Virus record (IMG/VR): IMGVR_UViG_3300050821_012756
Span: 1 to 26,547 of that record
DNA: 26,547 nt
From: a virus
Direction: 5' to 3' (one strand)
Shown in pieces: positions 2,874 through 21,592 of this stretch (the first letter of the stretch is position 1; each line of letters opens with the position of its first letter). The notes below the pieces were generated by a model that was not told the origin of the DNA, ran no database searches, and saw only the letters and a program-made list of their open reading frames with translations. A program made the translations under genes and the position numbers.

Positions 2874-3217
2874 ATCGCAACCGTGGCTGTCAGTTTAGCC
2901 CCCTGATGCGTGGTCACCGCCACGTTATAGGTAGGCGATGTCGTGCCGGCCTGCTTCGTGATCAGGAGCGACGCGAAGTAGGGCGCAAATGTCTGCTGCG
3001 TCATCTGGACGTAATAGTCAGGGTAGATCTGCTGTAGGATCGTCTGCACCTGCGGTATGCCAAATGTGCTATAGAAGGGACTCTCGTTTAACGAAAGTTG
3101 AAGTACCTGGCAGAGGGTAGTTAAATAAACAAGATCGTTGAACCCTGCTGTATCGGTATCAACTTCTTGCCAAACTAATGCCCCTGAACTATTGACGATC
3201 CTTCCATAAGTTCTCAT
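2870..3217 (-). CDS. Small baseplate wedge protein in the gpW/gp25 position
   Basis: This 115-residue protein lies directly before baseplate J. In P2-like and Mu-like phages that slot holds the gpW/gp25-type wedge protein. Visible pieces are MRTYGRIVNSSG at the start, LCQVLQLSLNESPFYSTFGIP in the middle and an aromatic IYPDYYVQMTQQTFAPYFASL. The phrase LNESPFYSTFGIP resembles the segment of gp25-like proteins where a short helix is followed by E..PF...G.P. Assignment rests mostly on position and size. Its ATG overlaps the stop of the GIY-YIG gene and its own stop overlaps the J start, so it is translationally coupled on both sides. Confidence 0.75.
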   Translation of the reverse strand: MRTYGRIVNSSGALVWQEVDTDTAGFNDLVYLTTLCQVLQLSLNESPFYSTFGIPQVQTILQQIYPDYYVQMTQQTFAPYFASLLITKQAGTTSPTYNVAVTTHQGAKLTATVAI

Positions 3218-3966
3218 TGGCGCGCTCGACGTAAAGCGGCTTTTCGCAGTTTCTTCTTGGTTTCCGCCGAATGTTTGTGCCCAGTGCGGTGTGTCCAGGC
3301 TTTCCGCATTTTCGCCTTAGTCTCGTCTGAGTGCTTATGCCCAGCGAAGAAGCCCGGCTTACCAAGCAGTCTCGCGCGATTAATATCACGTAGTTTTTGC
3401 GGAATGATCCTCCCCAAGGCCGCCGCGCGCATCTTAATCTTCGTTTCTTCCGTGTGCTTATAGCCGCGACAATTTGTATTTCCTAATTGCCCTCGGCTCA
3501 TCCTCGCGCGCTGTTCTGGCGTCCGCTTCTGCCCGGTATTCTTAGCAACGCGATTCGCAATCTCAGCCGGCGAATGTTTACGACAGCCGTAAGTATTACC
3601 TCTATGAAGAACGCCCAAACGCTTACGCCCCTCTTCGGAAAAACGGCCGCCTGCGAATCCTTCTCCGCCATCTGTCAAATTGACCAACGGACCGCCGTGC
3701 ACTTCGCGACCTATTTGTGCAATGAGGCGCCTTTCCATGGAGAAAGCTGCGCGCTCGGTTAGGGACTCGCCAATTTTAAACTTCGGCAATGAACCGCCCG
3801 CGTTGCGGATGATGAGTGCGAGATGCGGATTGGCATGCGGCTTTCCGCGCCGCACCAGCCGTTCGTGCGATAACAAACGCCGCTTACGTCCCTTGCCGAC
3901 GTAGCAAGGAACGCCGCTCAGCCTGAAGAGTACGTAAACATAGAAACTGCGATCAACGGTGCGCAT
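3214..3966 (-). CDS. GIY-YIG homing endonuclease with NUMOD3 repeats
   Basis: I take the ATG at 3966 (250 residues). It lies 13 nt after the spike stop; an ATG at 4005 would overlap the spike gene and add 13 unlikely residues. The GIY-YIG nuclease motifs are FYVYVL (8-13) and CYVGKG (21-26), with R30, a probable catalytic E78 (SMERRL) and N96 (LVNLTDGG). The C-terminal half is a string of NUMOD3-type DNA-binding motifs of the form GHKHS.ETK.K(M/L)RKA, about five or six copies from residue 106 to 244, very Lys/Arg-rich. This is the build of freestanding phage homing nucleases (I-TevI relatives): nuclease head plus modular DNA-binding tail. It sits between spike and wedge genes in the same direction, with no intron-like flank. 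No clear strong ribosome binding site is seen. Confidence 0.93.
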   Translation of the reverse strand: MRTVDRSFYVYVLFRLSGVPCYVGKGRKRRLLSHERLVRRGKPHANPHLALIIRNAGGSLPKFKIGESLTERAAFSMERRLIAQIGREVHGGPLVNLTDGGEGFAGGRFSEEGRKRLGVLHRGNTYGCRKHSPAEIANRVAKNTGQKRTPEQRARMSRGQLGNTNCRGYKHTEETKIKMRAAALGRIIPQKLRDINRARLLGKPGFFAGHKHSDETKAKMRKAWTHRTGHKHSAETKKKLRKAALRRARQ

Positions 3967-3979
3967 GCACCAGATTATC

Positions 3980-4603
3980 TCACGGCACCACAGGTCCCGA
4001 CACATCCGGACCCGTTTGCACGGCGCTATGAGCGTGGGCTAGGAACAGCACGCCATCGATGGTGACGCCAGAAGAATTGATCACGATGCTGTGACTTCCT
4101 ACCGAAAAGGTCAGCGATGTGTTACCGCTAATCGTGATGCCGCTTGGCGTCAGCGTGAACGTCGTCTCACCGGCCGTGTCCTTCAAGACGACGCCATCGG
4201 GTCCGTAGAGCACAAGGGCATTAGGATTGACAGGCGACCAATTCTTGTTACCGCACGGCACCCACATGAGCGTCGCGAGATTACCTTGCTGCGTGCTGAA
4301 GTCGGCTGCCGTGCCAGTCGGCCCCAGGCCGCTTACCTGCCCGGTATACACGTCCACGGGAAACGTCACACCCTTGTCGCCGACCTGGATCGGGTAGCGC
4401 ACGTACTCCGCGCCGAGAATCGGCATTGTGACTTGTGGCAGCACCGCGCCGGTCACATCGAAATTCACGGTCACAATCGGGCCGTCAACCGCGACCACGT
4501 GCCCCGGCAGAGCGCGCCCACGCTTGCTGATTTCCGCTAGCACGCGCTGCTGCACGAAGTTCGGCAGCGTGCGCGACAGCGGAATTTTCTGCTGGTTACT
4601 CAT
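3980..4603 (-). CDS. Baseplate spike / central puncture protein (gpV, gp45-like)
   Basis: The 207-residue protein has the order expected of P2 gpV/Mu gp45 spikes. An N-terminal OB-fold region carries LPGHVVAVDGPIVTVNFDVTG. A linker follows, then a glycine- and serine-spaced beta region (TFTLTPSGITISGNTSLTFSV...) typical of a trimeric beta-helix. The C-terminal tip contains HAHS, with His190 and His192. An H-x-H pair near the C-terminus is the known iron-binding motif at the apex of P2 and phi92 spikes, where six histidines from a trimer hold the metal. The spike would be the first part to pierce the outer membrane. Hub gene upstream, wedge and J genes downstream (beyond the inserted endonuclease gene) agree. 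Its start overlaps the hub stop (ATGA). Confidence 0.9.
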   Translation of the reverse strand: MSNQQKIPLSRTLPNFVQQRVLAEISKRGRALPGHVVAVDGPIVTVNFDVTGAVLPQVTMPILGAEYVRYPIQVGDKGVTFPVDVYTGQVSGLGPTGTAADFSTQQGNLATLMWVPCGNKNWSPVNPNALVLYGPDGVVLKDTAGETTFTLTPSGITISGNTSLTFSVGSHSIVINSSGVTIDGVLFLAHAHSAVQTGPDVSGPVVP

Positions 4604-8566: not shown

Positions 8567-8875
8567 CTACCCCATTGGCCGTAAGCCGCGCAGCGCGCCT
8601 GTCAGGTAGCGCTGCCTGTACTCCTGCGCCGACGTGTTCCACGGAAAATTGTCGTGCTGGCGGAAGTATTCTTCCCAGCCAGCACCCGCAACCCAATCCA
8701 GGATCGAACCGACTATGCCGCCTTCGCGCCGGAATTCGCGTCCGCAGTCAACGTCGGTAAGGAATTCAAGAAGACCGTACAGTTGGAGGATGTGATTTGC
8801 GCAGCCCACAGTTGCATCGCGCCAGGTAGCATTTCCTCCGACTGCTGGCGCAGATGCATGCACCAGGCCACCGTA
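8567..8875 (-). CDS. Frameshift-only extension (T part) of the tail assembly chaperone
   Basis: This reading frame is -1 relative to the chaperone gene that starts at 9273. It has no good start of its own; a GTG at 8863 is the only early candidate and lacks a ribosome binding site. It is best read as the continuation after a -1 slip at the T7 run 8881-8875. Residues 1-133 of the first frame would then join about 102 residues beginning YGGLVHASAPAVGGN and ending GALRGLRPMG. The fusion would be about 235 residues. The extension is acidic-aromatic (FLTDVDCGREFRREGG, WVAGAGWEEYFRQHDNFPW). In lambda (G/GT), the extended product binds the tape measure and recruits tube subunits. The tape measure starts 6 nt after this stop, as expected. 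Confidence 0.85.
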   Translation of the reverse strand, partial: YGGLVHASAPAVGGNATWRDATVGCANHILQLYGLLEFLTDVDCGREFRREGGIVGSILDWVAGAGWEEYFRQHDNFPWNTSAQEYRQRYLTGALRGLRPMG

Positions 8876-9273
8876 AAAAAAGTGATCGCGCCCTCCGATT
8901 CGGAAATCTCGTGCGGATCAAGACAGATCTTCACACGCGGATCATCGAAGGGGATCATTTCCCAGCCGCGCTCGCCCGGTGCGATCACATTCGTCAGGCG
9001 GCGAATCTCGGCAACGAGGCCGCGCTCGACGCCGGTGGGCCCGTCCCACATGCCGAGTTCCTTAGAGATATCCTTCAGCGCCTTGTTGGCGATGCGCGGG
9101 CCTGCGACTGCGCCTAAGCCTTCGGAATAGATCGTCGCGAAAGTTTTCCCGATGGGCTTCCAGTAGGTGTCGAACACCGTCTCGGAGATGGGCGCGGAAT
9201 GAACGTAAACGCTCGGCTTGTCCTTGCGCACGATCTCGCGCACGAGGTATAGATTTTTATCGATATGTATCAC
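8713..9273 (-). CDS. Tail assembly chaperone (G-like, frame 0)
   Basis: The 186-residue frame starts with a GTG at 9273 (GGTGAG lies 8 nt upstream). It sits between the tube and tape-measure genes, the usual slot of the tail assembly chaperone. The early part reads NLYLVREIVRKDKPSVYVHSAPI and continues to GVERGLVAEIRRLTNVI. Near residue 133 it crosses the T7 slip run, after which frame 0 continues for 53 residues and ends AKAA. Most ribosomes should finish in this frame, while a minority shift into the -1 frame. There is no enzyme motif. The assignment rests on position, the overlap of two frames in the -1 relation and the shift signal; primary sequence of these chaperones is poorly conserved. 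Confidence 0.85.
   Translation of the reverse strand: MIHIDKNLYLVREIVRKDKPSVYVHSAPISETVFDTYWKPIGKTFATIYSEGLGAVAGPRIANKALKDISKELGMWDGPTGVERGLVAEIRRLTNVIAPGERGWEMIPFDDPRVKICLDPHEISESEGAITFFTVAWCMHLRQQSEEMLPGAMQLWAAQITSSNCTVFLNSLPTLTADANSGAKAA
8845..8866 (-). promoter_or_regulatory. Hairpin downstream of the slip site (frameshift stimulator)
   Basis: CTGGTGCA at 8866-8859 pairs with TGCGCCAG at 8852-8845 over 8 bp with one G-U pair, and the loop is TGCATC. The gap from the end of the T7 run to the stem is 8 nt (8874-8867), within the usual range for bacterial -1 stimulators. Confidence 0.8.
8875..8881 (-). promoter_or_regulatory. T7 slippery heptamer for -1 programmed frameshifting
   Basis: The minus strand reads seven T residues here, and frame 0 divides them as T TTT TTT, the canonical X XXY YYZ form with UUU in both P and A sites. 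Slipping one base back keeps full pairing. The codons are ACT TTT TTT ACG before slipping and TTT TTT TAC GGT after it. Confidence 0.88.
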
Positions 9274-13273: not shown

Positions 13274-13525
13274 TTACTGCCCGCGTGGCAGTTGCGTCGC
13301 GACCTGCAAGCCGCGTGCGTGATCGGCGGCAAATGCCTGGAATACGTTCGCGATGAGCGCCATGGTGGCGTTGTCGTGCGCTGTCACCACGATTTCGCCC
13401 ACGTAGATGCCGTCGCTGTACGTATAGATCAGTCGCAGCCCATTCGGCGTCGGCAGCACGGACTGCAGCAAGTTGCGCTGCGGAGGCTGTGCGCTGCCGT
13501 TTGCGCCGTTCTTTTCAGGTGTCAT
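13274..13525 (-). CDS. Small conserved-looking phage protein, function unknown
   Basis: The 83-residue protein has a short Asn/Gln-rich start (EKNGANGSAQPPQRNLLQ) and then NGLRLIYTYSDGIYVGEIVVTAHDNATMALIANVF, a strand-strand-helix pattern. It starts inside the end of the HNH gene with an 11-base overlap and runs directly into the next gene. Before the HNH gene arrived, it most likely followed the 161-residue connector-like gene. I do not recognise a family. Confidence 0.65.
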   Translation of the reverse strand: MTPEKNGANGSAQPPQRNLLQSVLPTPNGLRLIYTYSDGIYVGEIVVTAHDNATMALIANVFQAFAADHARGLQVATQLPRGQ

Positions 13526-14282
13526 AGCCGATCAGCCTCGCTTTGAAAGCTGCGCTCAATTCCGGAAGCCATTCTTTCATGGTCTTGAGGTGCTTTTTTC
13601 TGTTGCATGGCGCGCACAGCCATTGCAGATTGTCGATGTCGTTAGTGCCGCCACGAGCAAGGGAAAGGTCATGATCGATATGGCGCTTAACAGTTCTCAA
13701 ATTAATGCGGCAAAACGGATTTGCGCATAGATAATGTTGGTCAACTAGCAGCTGATTAATCTGCTCTGCCTTAAACTTGCCGCAACCCTGTAACCGCGCG
13801 CCTCGCCTGAGATGATTCTCAACGCGCACCATTTCAGGTGTTCGCCTTTTTCGCCTTGATAAATTAATCCTCGCGCGATTGCGCTTCCTCCATGCGCGCG
13901 CCTTACGAAGCTCGCGTTCATAGTTGCGCTCCAACCATTCACGCTGTTTGCGATAGATGCGCTTGGCATTACGCCTTCGGTACGCGCGGTAATGCGCAAC
14001 CCCTTTCCGTCCCGGCATCGGTCCAATGCGATGACCTATATAAGGGACATTTACGCCGCGTGATCTCAAATAAGCATTTCTATTTAGCTGCTTTATCCGA
14101 AGACGGTTTTTGGCCCTCCAATGCCGCGCATATTTGGCTCCGTATTTCGCGTAGATTTCGCGCCGCCGCTTTTTCTCGCATCGCTTACAAGCGCTTCGTC
14201 GTCTAGGCTTGCCGTAAGCGTCGTAGCCATTGGAGTCAAATTGACTGACTTTCTTAGCGACACCGCATTTCGTACAGCGCAT
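13515..14282 (-). CDS. HNH homing-type endonuclease
   Basis: This 255-residue, very Arg/Lys-rich protein has two zinc-binding parts. An N-terminal finger has C3-C6 and C32-C35 (CTKCG, CKRC), typical of phage HNH proteins that start with CxxC and a later CxxC. The C-terminal nuclease has C186/C191, then H201-I-D-H204, N218 (NDIDNLQWLC) and C223-C226, H231, which is the bacterial HNH pattern. The middle is a basic linker (KRIYRKQREWLERNYEREL) that may wrap DNA. It lies between a connector-like gene and a small gene, with an 11-base overlap downstream and no intron ends, so it is freestanding. The region looks more AT-rich than neighbours. No Shine-Dalgarno is evident. Confidence 0.92.
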   Translation of the reverse strand: MRCTKCGVAKKVSQFDSNGYDAYGKPRRRSACKRCEKKRRREIYAKYGAKYARHWRAKNRLRIKQLNRNAYLRSRGVNVPYIGHRIGPMPGRKGVAHYRAYRRRNAKRIYRKQREWLERNYERELRKARAWRKRNRARINLSRRKRRTPEMVRVENHLRRGARLQGCGKFKAEQINQLLVDQHYLCANPFCRINLRTVKRHIDHDLSLARGGTNDIDNLQWLCAPCNRKKHLKTMKEWLPELSAAFKARLIGYDT

Positions 14283-17066: not shown

Positions 17067-17082
17067 CTGAGCGTGCGCTCAG
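17067..17082 (-). other. Perfect inverted repeat over the end of the scaffold gene
   Basis: CTGAGCG and CGCTCAG form a 7-bp stem with a 2-nt gap (CA) that contains the stop codon of the scaffold gene. No T-run follows, so it is not a normal intrinsic terminator. It may slow ribosomes or protect RNA before the decoration gene. Confidence 0.45.
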
Positions 17083-17927
17083 CGCGAGGGCTGGAACTTG
17101 GTTTGCCAGCCGGTGACGAGTCGCGAGGGCTGCTTGAACGGACCCCAGCACGCTTCCGGGTCGCCGTAGAACTTGCGGATTCGGCGGCCGGTGTCGTCGG
17201 TCGCTGTGACGATGCGCAGTGTGCCGGCCTCCACGTTCTGCGGGCTCATGGCCGCTGCGAGCGCATCCGAATACACCTGCGACTCGACCGTATCGAGCGC
17301 TTTGTCGGCGAAAGGCGTGAGGTCCACGTCCTTCCACGAGCGTGAGTGCTTCTTGAATGCACCGAGCAGGCGCCGGCGATATTGCGACAGACTTTCGCCG
17401 TTCAGATGCCGCGGCGCTCCAGCGGAATCGCCAAACGCCTGCGCGACGCGCTCGGCTTTCGCCTGCGCCTCAACGAACCGCAGACGGTCCTCTTCCGGCA
17501 ACTCGTGGGGCATCCGCTTCTCGAGTCCATCGAGCCGGGCACGGATCGCCGCAGCGTCCGCACGAGCACTGTCGTTCTTGTCCAAGTCGTTCTCCTCGCG
17601 TTCCTCTTTGAGTGCGGCAGCTTCTTTCTTGCCGCCGGGCTGCTCCTCGCCATCGGCCTTGGCAGCGTCTTTCTTGGTCTTGTCGGCTGCGAGTGGCGTC
17701 GGCTCGCCTTCCTCTTTCTCGTCCTTTTCCTCTTTCTTGTCCTCGCCCTTGGACTCTTCCTTCTTTTCCTCTTTCGGAGGTTCTTTCTTTTCGAACGCAT
17801 CCATGCGCCCGCACATGGCGTCCATGCGCTTGTTGATGCTGTCGAGATGAGCGAGCACTTTGTCGAGCGGCTCGCCCTCCTTCTTGTCAGTCGGTAGGCC
17901 GGCGTCGGCCGCAGTGCTCTCACCCAT
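17079..17927 (-). CDS. Scaffold protein from an internal start (Nu3-like)
   Basis: An in-frame ATG at 17927 (residue 338 of the fusion) has AGGAG at 17940-17936 with 8 nt between, a stronger ribosome binding site than most genes here. The product would be 282 residues, starting MGESTAADAGLPTDKKEGE. It begins exactly where the protease domain ends and contains only the charged scaffold part. In lambda the scaffold Nu3 is made from an internal start within the protease gene C, in the same gene order. Expression of this product is inferred from sequence signals; it is not proven. It would supply more scaffold than protease. Confidence 0.7.
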   Translation of the reverse strand: MGESTAADAGLPTDKKEGEPLDKVLAHLDSINKRMDAMCGRMDAFEKKEPPKEEKKEESKGEDKKEEKDEKEEGEPTPLAADKTKKDAAKADGEEQPGGKKEAAALKEEREENDLDKNDSARADAAAIRARLDGLEKRMPHELPEEDRLRFVEAQAKAERVAQAFGDSAGAPRHLNGESLSQYRRRLLGAFKKHSRSWKDVDLTPFADKALDTVESQVYSDALAAAMSPQNVEAGTLRIVTATDDTGRRIRKFYGDPEACWGPFKQPSRLVTGWQTKFQPSR

Positions 17928-18938
17928 GTTGCAATCTCCTGCAGTTGAATCCGTCTTCGCGGCGGATGGACTATCAATGCCGGATGGGCCGGCTCCCCTA
18001 TCCCATGTACCTAATTCACACAAAGCAACGTGATCGATAATGCTTGGCTTGCCCTCGATCAACAGTCGCTCGCCGTTCTCCAACTCATGCGTACTACCAA
18101 TATCTTGCGGCTTAAATACAACGCAAGGACTGGTGGAGAGTTGGCGCTCCGTAATCATGCGCGCCACGGCCATGTCATAAATCTTCGCGATGCCCCACAC
18201 CTCGTTGTCGCTGATATAGGGCAAGAAAATTGTGCCGACGATGCGGTCGCGGAACTCCTGCGTATCCAGCGGCTGACCACTCGTTGGATGGTCTAGGATC
18301 ACTGACAGCCCGTTGCAGCGCTGCACGAAGTGATCATTGAGGTAGAGCGAGGCGTCGCGCCAGACGTACTCTTTCAGGCCAGCGCGATAGGCAGCACCAG
18401 TGCCGGTGATGCGCATGTTGACGAGCATCACGTTGCCGAACATCTGCGGGCTGACGAGTTCGCTAGCGCGCATGGCCTTCGCAACACCTAGCTCGTCAAG
18501 TTCACCCTTCATCAGCGAAATGCCGGCACCCGGGTGCAAGATGCCGTAAGAAGACTGCTCAGACAGCGCGTTCTTCTTACTTACCCACTGCACCGCATCG
18601 TGCTCGGTGGTCAGCTTGGCGTCGAAGCGCGGGCCGGTGGTGACGAACGTCGTGAAATCCACCCCGTCCTTCACGCGCTGCGTCAGGGGCCACAGCACAG
18701 CCGGCGCCACGGCACCGGTTTCCTCGCTGAATTCGCGACGCGCGGCAGCTTCTGCCGTTTCTTCGCCTTCGATGCCGCCGCCGGGAAAAGCCCACGTGCC
18801 TGGATGATCGTGCCCGGCGCGGCGCATCATCAGGACATCGCCGCTTGCGATATCGACATACATGATGCCGCTCGCGCGGCGCACAGGGACGGGGGCTGCG
18901 CCTACTGTCGACGCAGCTTCATCTGCCCCCGCAGTCAT
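17079..18938 (-). CDS. NUDIX-prohead protease-scaffold fusion protein
   Basis: The 619-residue protein has three parts. Residues about 20-145 are a NUDIX domain with a complete box, G54..E60...R68-E69..E72-E73.G75 (GGIEGEE and REFSEETGA). Residues about 165-315 match DUF2213-type prohead proteases: H217 in LDHP, then GTIFLP...VWGIAKIYD and S268/S270 in QLSTSP, with DHVALCE at 302-308, as in the H and S order of capsid proteases. Residues 338-619 are strongly charged, with EEKKEESKGEDKK-like runs to about 450, and end in a conserved-looking segment (YRRRLLGAFKKHSRSW, RRIRKFYGDPEACWGPFKQPS). The last part is likely the scaffold. It precedes decoration and capsid genes, as lambda C/Nu3 do. NUDIX substrate is not evident. 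Confidence 0.85.
   Translation of the reverse strand: MTAGADEAASTVGAAPVPVRRASGIMYVDIASGDVLMMRRAGHDHPGTWAFPGGGIEGEETAEAAARREFSEETGAVAPAVLWPLTQRVKDGVDFTTFVTTGPRFDAKLTTEHDAVQWVSKKNALSEQSSYGILHPGAGISLMKGELDELGVAKAMRASELVSPQMFGNVMLVNMRITGTGAAYRAGLKEYVWRDASLYLNDHFVQRCNGLSVILDHPTSGQPLDTQEFRDRIVGTIFLPYISDNEVWGIAKIYDMAVARMITERQLSTSPCVVFKPQDIGSTHELENGERLLIEGKPSIIDHVALCELGTWDRGAGPSGIDSPSAAKTDSTAGDCNMGESTAADAGLPTDKKEGEPLDKVLAHLDSINKRMDAMCGRMDAFEKKEPPKEEKKEESKGEDKKEEKDEKEEGEPTPLAADKTKKDAAKADGEEQPGGKKEAAALKEEREENDLDKNDSARADAAAIRARLDGLEKRMPHELPEEDRLRFVEAQAKAERVAQAFGDSAGAPRHLNGESLSQYRRRLLGAFKKHSRSWKDVDLTPFADKALDTVESQVYSDALAAAMSPQNVEAGTLRIVTATDDTGRRIRKFYGDPEACWGPFKQPSRLVTGWQTKFQPSR
17936..17940 (-). promoter_or_regulatory. 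Internal Shine-Dalgarno for scaffold start
   Basis: AGGAG on the minus strand stands 8 nt before an in-frame ATG at 17927, at the junction between the protease and scaffold parts of the fusion gene. It decides the internal start. Confidence 0.7.
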
Positions 18939-19185: not shown

Positions 19186-20058
19186 TCAGGCTCCATAGGC
19201 GTGCTCGTGCAGGCCAATCTTCGCGCGCGCCGCGAGTAACGCCTCGCGCCCCTTGGTGGTGATCATCTCGGATGGCAACTGGCGCAGTGAGTATACGAAT
19301 TGGTATCGGCATCGACAGAAAGGCTCGAATCCTGGCTCGGTGATCTGATCCGTATATTCGTGACCAGCCAGCTTCATGAACCCTTTGCGCAGCGCCCAAT
19401 TATCACGCAGCACATAGAACTTACCGTCCCTCTCCTTGTGATCCTCACGGTAGTCGTAGCCTGCTTCGCGCCAATGCGAGTGCCAGATACCCGCGATGGC
19501 GCCGCCATCCACTGCGACAATCTCATTCACTGCCGCGACCAACTTATGTCCCTGATCGATGATGACTCGCCGTTCCTCGAACGGAAGCGCCGTCACTGCT
19601 TTGCGGATGCTGCGTTTAATTGCTGGCCGCTCGGTCGCCTCCGTGCCACCTGCAGGCACGCTTGTGGCCCAGCCGGCGAAGCGTCGCAGCGTGCGCTGGA
19701 TGGAGGCTTCGCGATTCAGCTTGATCAGATTCGCTGATGCCAGAATCCGCCGCTCGAGCTCCGCGTGCAGTTTCGGCTTGATGGATGCGAGCGTGTACTG
19801 GTCGATGCCGCGGTGCTTGCGCTGCAGCGCCGACCCGTTCACGAGCCGGCGAAACTGCTGCGTGAGCGCGTCCCGCATCGCGCGCATCATTACGTCGGCC
19901 GGCAACAGCGCCGCACGCGCCGCCAGCTCAAGCCGCGCCATCCAGGAGTCCAGCCGCTGCTGCGAATCGAATCCGTACTCGGTCAGATCGTCAATCGCCT
20001 CGTTGACGAGCTTGTAGAACGCAGCCCGAGCGCCACGTCCAAAGGTGGTCTTAGCCAC
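19186..20058 (-). CDS. Head morphogenesis protein (Mu gpF/SPP1 gp7-like)
   Basis: The 290-residue protein has a helical first half, then a conserved C-terminal domain: VIIDQGHKLVAAVNEIVA, IAGIWHSHWREAGYDYREDHKERDGKFYVLRDNW and GFEPFCRCRYQFVYSLRQLP. The run R.DHK.RDGK...RDNW followed by P-(x)-C-R-C-R-Y is the MuF/gp7 domain, present in minor head proteins that bind portal and are injected or aid DNA retention. Its ATG overlaps the end of the portal gene by 8 bases. Length fits the family. The domain lacks fused toxin-like C-termini that some MuF proteins carry, so this is the plain form. Confidence 0.88.
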   Translation of the reverse strand: MAKTTFGRGARAAFYKLVNEAIDDLTEYGFDSQQRLDSWMARLELAARAALLPADVMMRAMRDALTQQFRRLVNGSALQRKHRGIDQYTLASIKPKLHAELERRILASANLIKLNREASIQRTLRRFAGWATSVPAGGTEATERPAIKRSIRKAVTALPFEERRVIIDQGHKLVAAVNEIVAVDGGAIAGIWHSHWREAGYDYREDHKERDGKFYVLRDNWALRKGFMKLAGHEYTDQITEPGFEPFCRCRYQFVYSLRQLPSEMITTKGREALLAARAKIGLHEHAYGA

Positions 20059-21592
20059 GACGTTCTAAACGCCGCACGTTCGCCTTGGGCGGTTGCTTCG
20101 CAGGTTGTTTGGCGCCGCTGCCGTTATCCTGCGCCCCTCCACCGCCGGGCGGCATCATGCCGTTCTTGAGCGCTTCAGCTTCCTGATCGGCTTTGTCTTC
20201 CGCGTGATCCGAGAGCGCTTCGTAATCCAGTTCCAGTCCATGCGGGAACATCATCTTGTTCTCGTTGATGTTGTCCGCGGCCCAATTCATGATGCGGCCG
20301 AGATTTTCTGGGTCAACCAGAGGAAGGGCCACTTCCATGAACTCGATGATGCCGTCGAGCTTGGTCTGCTCCACCTTGATCTGCTCGCTCTCCGGCTCGA
20401 TCAGTAACGAGGGCCACCCAGCTTGGAACGAATTGCGCCACTGGAGAAACGCTTCGCGATACTCCATGTCGCCATAGGTGTCCGGATACTGCGATTGAAT
20501 GCGCTCGTAGAACTGCGGGTTCCACACGCGGTACTGCACGATGTTGTCGAAGAACGCATACAGCGGCTGCATCTTCATGCGCATGAGGTCGATGTAACGC
20601 GCAATGTTCTTGGCATCCTCCGTGCCTTCGCCGAATCCTGCGACCAGCGTCTCGTTCTCCAGAAGCTTCGCCGGCATATCGGCAGCGGTGGCAATATTCT
20701 TCAGAATGTTGGTACGCGAATAGGTGCCCGCGCCATCCACATTCATCATGTTGAGCGTCTCGATCTCTTCTTCGATGCCGATCGAGAGCACCTGGTTCGT
20801 CTGCGCCTGCCTGAGCAGTGCCCGTTTTACGCCCGCGATCAGTTGCATCGCCCGGTCGAGAATGGAGCCGGGGGCCTTCTGCTTCGCGATCAGCAGCCCC
20901 AGCTTCGTCGCGATCATGTCATCCGCGATCATGCTGCGGATGAAGGACTTCAGCGGGAACAGCGCGCGCTGATAGACACTGCGGCCGACGAAGCCGAACG
21001 CCGACGTCGTATAGGCCAGATAAATCGGCGATTCGTTCAGCACCACCTGATAGCGCGAGCGGTGGAACACCTCACCATTCACACGAATCGACACTGGCTT
21101 ATTGAAGTCGGGCGACGTCGGCACCTGGCTCAATACCATGCTGCCAGCCGTGTTGAGCGGATCGAGTTCGCTGAACCAAAGGTCCTGCTGCCAGATCTTT
21201 TCCATGTCCAGCGGCTGATCGGCTTTTACCTGATCGCAACCGATAATTAGCGAGGCAATGCCGTAGATCCGCGCGAGCCGCATCACGTTGTGGATATGGC
21301 CGTTGGCGTTAATCTTCTCCCACTCGCGCAGGAACTCGGAGGTCACTTCATCAGGTGCATCCTGTACCGCCACCTTGCGAGACTGGCTCTGCGCCATGTT
21401 GATCGGCGACTCGGCCATCTTCTGGCCAAGCGGGTGATACAGGTAAATCAGCTTCGCCAGCTCGTAGCTTAGATCTGATCCTGTGACGACGCTGTCGTCC
21501 ATCAGGATCTGCATGAGGCCGCTGCCGACGGAGGATGTGATCACCAGCTCGGAAGGGCCGGCATTCTGTCCGTCGTTAGTGGTGAAGGCCAT
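20051..21592 (-). CDS. Portal protein (DUF1073 type)
   Basis: The 513-residue protein begins with a Gly/Ser-rich lead and then DLSYELAKLIYLYHPLGQKMAESPINMAQS, GHIHNVMRLARIYGIASLIIGC and later DPLNTAGSMVLSQ. The central part includes RSVYQRALFPLKSFIRSMIADDMIATKLGLL and GEGTEDAKNIARYIDLMRMKMQPLYAFFDNIVQYRVWN. This last motif is the portal alpha-helical stem/wing pattern. The C-terminal 120 residues are acidic, then Pro/Lys-rich (PPGGGGAQ, KQPAKQPPKANVRRLERRG). The gene starts 3 nt after its neighbour. DUF1073 proteins are sometimes mislabelled Acb1-like; nothing here has Acb1 features. It forms the dodecameric DNA gate. Confidence 0.92.
   Translation of the reverse strand: MAFTTNDGQNAGPSELVITSSVGSGLMQILMDDSVVTGSDLSYELAKLIYLYHPLGQKMAESPINMAQSQSRKVAVQDAPDEVTSEFLREWEKINANGHIHNVMRLARIYGIASLIIGCDQVKADQPLDMEKIWQQDLWFSELDPLNTAGSMVLSQVPTSPDFNKPVSIRVNGEVFHRSRYQVVLNESPIYLAYTTSAFGFVGRSVYQRALFPLKSFIRSMIADDMIATKLGLLIAKQKAPGSILDRAMQLIAGVKRALLRQAQTNQVLSIGIEEEIETLNMMNVDGAGTYSRTNILKNIATAADMPAKLLENETLVAGFGEGTEDAKNIARYIDLMRMKMQPLYAFFDNIVQYRVWNPQFYERIQSQYPDTYGDMEYREAFLQWRNSFQAGWPSLLIEPESEQIKVEQTKLDGIIEFMEVALPLVDPENLGRIMNWAADNINENKMMFPHGLELDYEALSDHAEDKADQEAEALKNGMMPPGGGGAQDNGSGAKQPAKQPPKANVRRLERRG

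Follow-up and report, generated by a model that had tools for sequence, protein, structure and literature searches.

A conserved T run as the probable site of −1 ribosomal frameshifting in an unrecognised family of phage tail-assembly chaperone genes

The gene at 9273–8567 on the minus strand of a 26,547-base virus record is very probably the source of two tail-assembly chaperones, produced through −1 programmed ribosomal frameshifting, as judged from comparison of nucleotide sequences. The recoding site is true and conserved and of a known kind. It lies in an unrecognised family, and the overlap between its two reading frames is unusually long.

Gene order and reading frames

The window analysed here is the whole virus record of 26,547 bases. 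Its tail genes are located on the minus strand in the order sheath, tube, chaperone gene and tape measure (Table 1). As in a G/GT pair, the chaperone gene is situated between the tube and tape measure genes and has a −1 extension ending beside the latter. The −1 frame is open from the T run to a TAG at 8569–8567, and the fusion of both frames comprises 235 amino acids (...AITFFYGGLV...), leaving a gap of 6 nt to the tape measure ATG (8560). A product of about 235 residues with this end point had been proposed in a preliminary description of this DNA, and the reading frame for it was confirmed on the minus strand; the coordinates and phase given there for the run of seven T, read as T TTT TTT in frame 0 with the second frame in the −1 relation, were likewise correct. 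In some relatives, the 3′ neighbour position carries a tape measure or transglycosylase annotation.

Table 1. Positions of the tail genes and of the sequence elements of the chaperone locus in the window
Feature	Position	Strand	Remarks
Tail sheath, 459 aa	9767..11146	(-)	phrog_205, E 5e-28
Probable tail tube, 145 aa	9311..9748	(-)	phrog_6566; between sheath and chaperone genes
Frame-0 product, G-like tail assembly chaperone, 186 aa	8713..9273	(-)	GTG at 9273, stop at 8713; phrog_11810; AlphaFold2 pLDDT 90.7; weak Foldseek matches
SD-like GGAGGG	8891..8896	(-)	9 nt upstream of heptamer; candidate upstream stimulator
Slippery heptamer T_TTT_TTT	8875..8881	(-)	frame 0 ACT TTT TTT ACG; −1 frame TAC GGT GGC
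8-bp stem, 6-nt loop	8845..8866	(-)	8 nt after T7; arms 8866-8859 / 8852-8845
Two-frame overlap, 162 nt including frame-0 stop	8713..8874	(-)	frame 0, tail of G; −1 frame, T linker and start of T domain; substitution rates per position from 45 pairs
−1 frame extension, T-like domain, 102 aa	8567..8875	(-)	phrog_14324; kept in all relatives
Tape measure protein by position, 552 aa	6902..8560	(-)	phrog_7694, listed by PHROG as unknown function

Relatives of the locus

Phages of Yersinia, Klebsiella and Shewanella, identical in both cases, were retrieved when each frame was used separately in tblastn, at approximately 30–40% identity. Frame 0 additionally matched Rac-SA53 and an Actinobacillus phage, and the −1 frame a Pantoea phage. 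Electron microscopy has shown the Yersinia relatives to be myoviruses (PMC9224151). A viral scan with the single protein of the source record gave no relatives, and alignments were required. IMG/VR was scanned twice, with a frame-0 peptide pattern and with a T-domain peptide pattern that excluded the slip site, and bacterial genomes were scanned once. The set used below (n = 170) consists of the source record, eight phage records, 159 IMG/VR contigs and two bacterial contigs and collapses to 31 groups at 75% identity; locus L009, the source record's own stretch, was omitted from the relatives. The Rac-SA53 stretch with the chaperone locus was matched by 92 of 5,426 complete E. coli genomes.

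Conservation of the slip site

The T7 run at 8881–8875 (minus strand) lies in phase as (AC)T TTT TTT. Its significance comes from the relatives, since in the source sequence alone both T7 (one found, 0.83 expected in shuffles) and the downstream fold are at chance level. In all 170 sequences the second frame is shifted by −1 against frame 0, at the same codon throughout; no fused gene and no +1 relation occurred. A run of at least seven T was found in phase in 165 sequences (L051 included) and in 30 of 31 groups below 75% identity, which supports the earlier claim that a tail-chaperone gene of the G/GT type is recoded by −1 at T7. All of the first phage loci read carried T7 or T8 at this codon and in this phase, and T7 was present in all 79 loci (L090–L168) retrieved by the T-domain pattern without the slip site. 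The length of the run spans 6–8 across the relatives and is 7 in the source record, with T8 in 24 of the 31 groups; T8 in phase and no fused version were also seen in two complete E. coli chromosome copies. Relatives with a broken T7 had been named in the preliminary description as evidence against recoding. A single clade among the 170 sequences departs (L046, L047, L048, L050, L053), having G_TTT_TTT and retaining both frames.

The site has the form of an X_XXY_YYZ heptamer placed in phase within the overlap of two −1-related frames, and its retention exceeds amino-acid need. Both slip-site Phe codons are TTT in 31 of 31 representatives, in loci where TTT makes up 34% of the Phe codons. The T preceding TTT_TTT, present in 30 of 31, is the third base of GTT (24), ACT (3) or TGT (3), codons that account elsewhere in these loci for 22%, 13% and 32% of synonyms, respectively; outside the G_TTT_TTT clade this degenerate last base of a Val, Thr or Cys codon is always T. 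Further runs of at least seven T on the coding strand of the same loci were limited to 4 in 269,463 nt. Therefore, as codon choice and the rarity of such runs indicate, the heptamer is conserved for itself, beyond the amino acids encoded.

A run of this kind could also act during transcription, if RNA polymerase added one U in some transcripts and ordinary translation of these yielded the fusion. Slippage of the polymerase at T7–T8 would give the same product, and the T8 of most relatives agrees with the homopolymers of eight or longer that are given as typical (PMC3711429). However, T runs of n > 8 are cited for this mechanism in the same study, which also takes a constant direction as a criterion for ribosomal shifting (PMC3711429); the runs here do not exceed eight, and all 170 sequences are −1. 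Moreover, both frames are retained in the clade with T6 after G. We consider transcriptional slippage unlikely, and less likely than a ribosomal −1 slip.

Candidate stimulators

A stimulator is common at −1 frameshift sites but not obligatory. The preliminary description had assigned this part of the signal to a hairpin of 8 bp with a 6-nt loop, 8 nt downstream of T7. The hairpin (8866–8845) exists, and its stem is perfect and correctly spaced, but its proposed role did not hold. The 50 nt after T7 in the source record fold with a z of −0.90, a value equalled by 35 of 200 shuffles, and over 49 representatives the z for downstream structure averaged 0.00 and did not fall below that of control positions. 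Conservation of the stem, suggested as a check, was not seen: the pairs hold in 39% of cells in the relatives, equal to slid controls, and are broken even in the nearest relatives. An 8-bp stem at such a placement was obtained at 2.4% of control positions, and similar stems are as frequent elsewhere in the gene. A conserved downstream hairpin was thus rejected as a signal by its unremarkable fold and by pairs kept at chance. From the sequence comparison, the stem is best taken as chance, and it appears quite improbable that a real slippage at T7 is driven by it.

Upstream of the heptamer, anti-SD pairing across the family peaks near the GGAGGG region. This signal is no stronger than what synonymous recoding of the conserved Glu/Gly codons gives, and a conserved SD stimulator was rejected as not significant against that recoding. 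Neither conserved downstream structure nor an upstream SD-like signal beyond its null was found.

Selection on the two frames

The overlap of the two frames is 162–264 nt long including the stop, with frame 0 running 53–87 codons beyond the slip in the 31 representatives. Openness of frame 0 against chance gave a combined p of 0.02. As this test is weak, the members not being independent, the substitution pattern was used instead. Among 45 related pairs, mismatch at frame-0 codon positions 1, 2 and 3 was.102,.059 and.338 before the slip, which is the pattern of frame 0, and.044,.229 and.063 after the frame-0 stop, which is the pattern of the −1 frame. Within the overlap, codons 2–23 past the slip showed.066,.049 and.206; here frame 0 is dominant and the stretch is slower overall. 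From codon 24 to the frame-0 stop the values were.037,.146 and.093; the −1 frame is dominant, and the free position is slower than in T alone. These position-specific rates show that the overlap codes in both frames, with the weight shifting from G to T. Judged by them, purifying selection is acting on both frames.

The T frame might instead be translated separately from an internal start, for example the GTG at 8863, which lies four codons past the slip in the source record, with T7 being incidental. This explanation was rejected as very unlikely. The −1 frame of three relatives (L105, L113, L049) is entirely free of ATG, GTG and TTG, so T cannot come from a usual internal start there; several relatives either share this lack or have no such codon before the conserved domain, and conservation of T7 would be left unexplained. 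An error in sequencing or assembly of the homopolymer, or a broken or phase-variable gene whose true form is one fused frame, was rejected as hardly conceivable: T7 runs are error-prone in some technologies, but the arrangement is constant over 170 sequences and two complete E. coli chromosomes without a fused version, and selection is purifying on both frames of the overlap.

Protein products and proposed mechanism

Neither the G nor the T domain matched a Pfam or NCBIfam family. In the AlphaFold2 model of the frame-0 protein, the slip codons F132–F133 are located inside a helix (120–139), followed by a helix, a strand and a helix modelled with good confidence to about residue 172. The −1 extension is modelled as helical with moderate confidence. 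The viral matches of the frame-0 model in Foldseek included several proteins named as tail assembly or tape measure chaperones (for example at ranks 3, 8, 10, 15, 21 and 42), all of them weak (E 0.06–1.6); together with synteny, these matches support a chaperone role. For the T domain no structural match was found. PDB sequence and fold searches with G and a PDB sequence search with T gave nothing convincing, and a profile comparison of G with the T domain for internal duplication gave nothing.

For the preferred ribosomal −1 slip we suggest the following course. The majority of ribosomes would pass T_TTT_TTT unshifted and produce the 186-aa G-like chaperone. In a minority, the two Phe-tRNAs on UUU UUU would slip back by one base, re-pair perfectly and enter UAC GGU, giving a GT-like protein of 235 aa. 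GT would consist of residues 1–133 of G, without the last 53 residues of G, and the helical T domain. On the lambda model, G would serve to coat the tape measure protein, with the T domain bringing in the tube protein. Full re-pairing of the P-site tRNA-Phe would still be possible in the G_TTT_TTT clade. We infer a ribosomal rather than a transcriptional shift, as well as its efficiency and the functions of G and GT. Because the long overlap has a frame-0 tail that is predicted to be folded, GT would seem to carry a replaced end of G, not an addition to it. The models leave about even chances that the frameshift exchanges one folded C-terminal segment for another, using U_UUU_UUU without a conserved RNA structure. 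The G_TTT_TTT clade is a natural test of P-site-only slippage.

Comparison with known systems

The slip sequence of lambda G/GT is GGGAAAG, unlike the U_UUU_UUU found here, a difference that had already been pointed out in the preliminary description. Both systems are located between the tube and tape measure genes, use a −1 relation and specify a short and an extended product, the extended frame ending beside the tape measure gene. The G/GT frameshift is established in long-tailed phages, and −1 shifting on U_UUU_UUU, when tested in E. coli, was lower than on A_AAA_AAG (PMC5009743). The shift in lambda takes place near the 3′ end of g (PMC5009743), whereas frame 0 here goes 53–87 codons further; the lack of a Pfam or NCBIfam match also distinguishes the family from lambda.

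A T7 site with a stable stem had been regarded as a less common form. However, pure-T slip sequences are already described for P2 (T6G) and for Smp131-like phages (T7G, T7C) (PMC3931495). P2 E/E+E′ and Smp131 resemble the present case in belonging to contractile-tailed phages and in having a slip site with a pure T run, located in the gene that precedes the tape measure gene (PMC3931495). They differ in that the base after the T run is G in P2 and Smp131, or C in prophages, and always A here, and in that E′ of P2 extends only 37 nt back into E, compared with an overlap of 162–264 nt. Profile searches revealed no family shared with these phages, and the Pfam scan gave none. The HK97-like tail assembly chaperone cluster is of the same functional class, with 6–7% frameshifting measured there by reporter (PMC3711429); again, profile searches gave no shared family. 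The seven heptamers of that study are A-rich (PMC3711429), so they would miss a family with a T7 site. In the PRFect sets, the mean distance from the slip to the frame-0 stop is 26 nt (training set) or 36 nt (Xu phages) (PMC10885494), against 162–264 nt including the stop here.

Annotation and significance

Ten annotated records were read at the locus (eight phages and two E. coli chromosomes), and nine of them list G and the following gene but lack any annotation of a −1 extension. The exception is Klebsiella phage RothD with a 34-aa hypothetical protein (L006:3103-3207, plus strand) in the T frame including its stop; this stub at the 3′ end is the only −1-frame annotation among the ten. No description of a frameshift in the phrog_11810/phrog_14324 family was found in the open-licence papers searched, and the word "frameshift" is absent from the main text of the paper on the Yersinia phages (PMC9224151). 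The near-absence of the extension from annotation, the upstream GGAGGG and the long two-frame coding overlap did not appear in the preliminary description.

A likely role and a second product can now be proposed for phrog_11810 and phrog_14324, both presently listed as unknown function. The family occurs in phages and prophages of Enterobacterales, Shewanella and Actinobacillus and in many environmental contigs. Its T6, T7 and T8 sites share one conserved context and form a natural set for testing the determinants of frameshift level without conserved structure, and the long two-frame overlap is likewise useful for testing what sets this level.

Other genes of the record

Two further minus-strand ORFs of the window carry endonuclease-like features. 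The ORF at 3214–4005 (263 aa), located between baseplate genes, has a NUMOD3 motif and a weak GIY-YIG match and is, by these motifs, a probable free-standing homing endonuclease; the ORF at 13515–14282 (255 aa) has an HNH endonuclease domain and lies inside the structural gene cluster. The ORF at 17079–18938 (minus strand) lies on the side of the portal gene (20051–21592) that faces the sheath, a place at which one might expect a protease or scaffold gene; its product has 619 aa and carries a NUDIX domain at the N terminus (E 2e-16). After the baseplate genes, the minus-strand ORF at 3–1646, cut by the end of the record, has repeated PKD/SprB-like domains, which suggest that its product is perhaps a tail fibre or spike.
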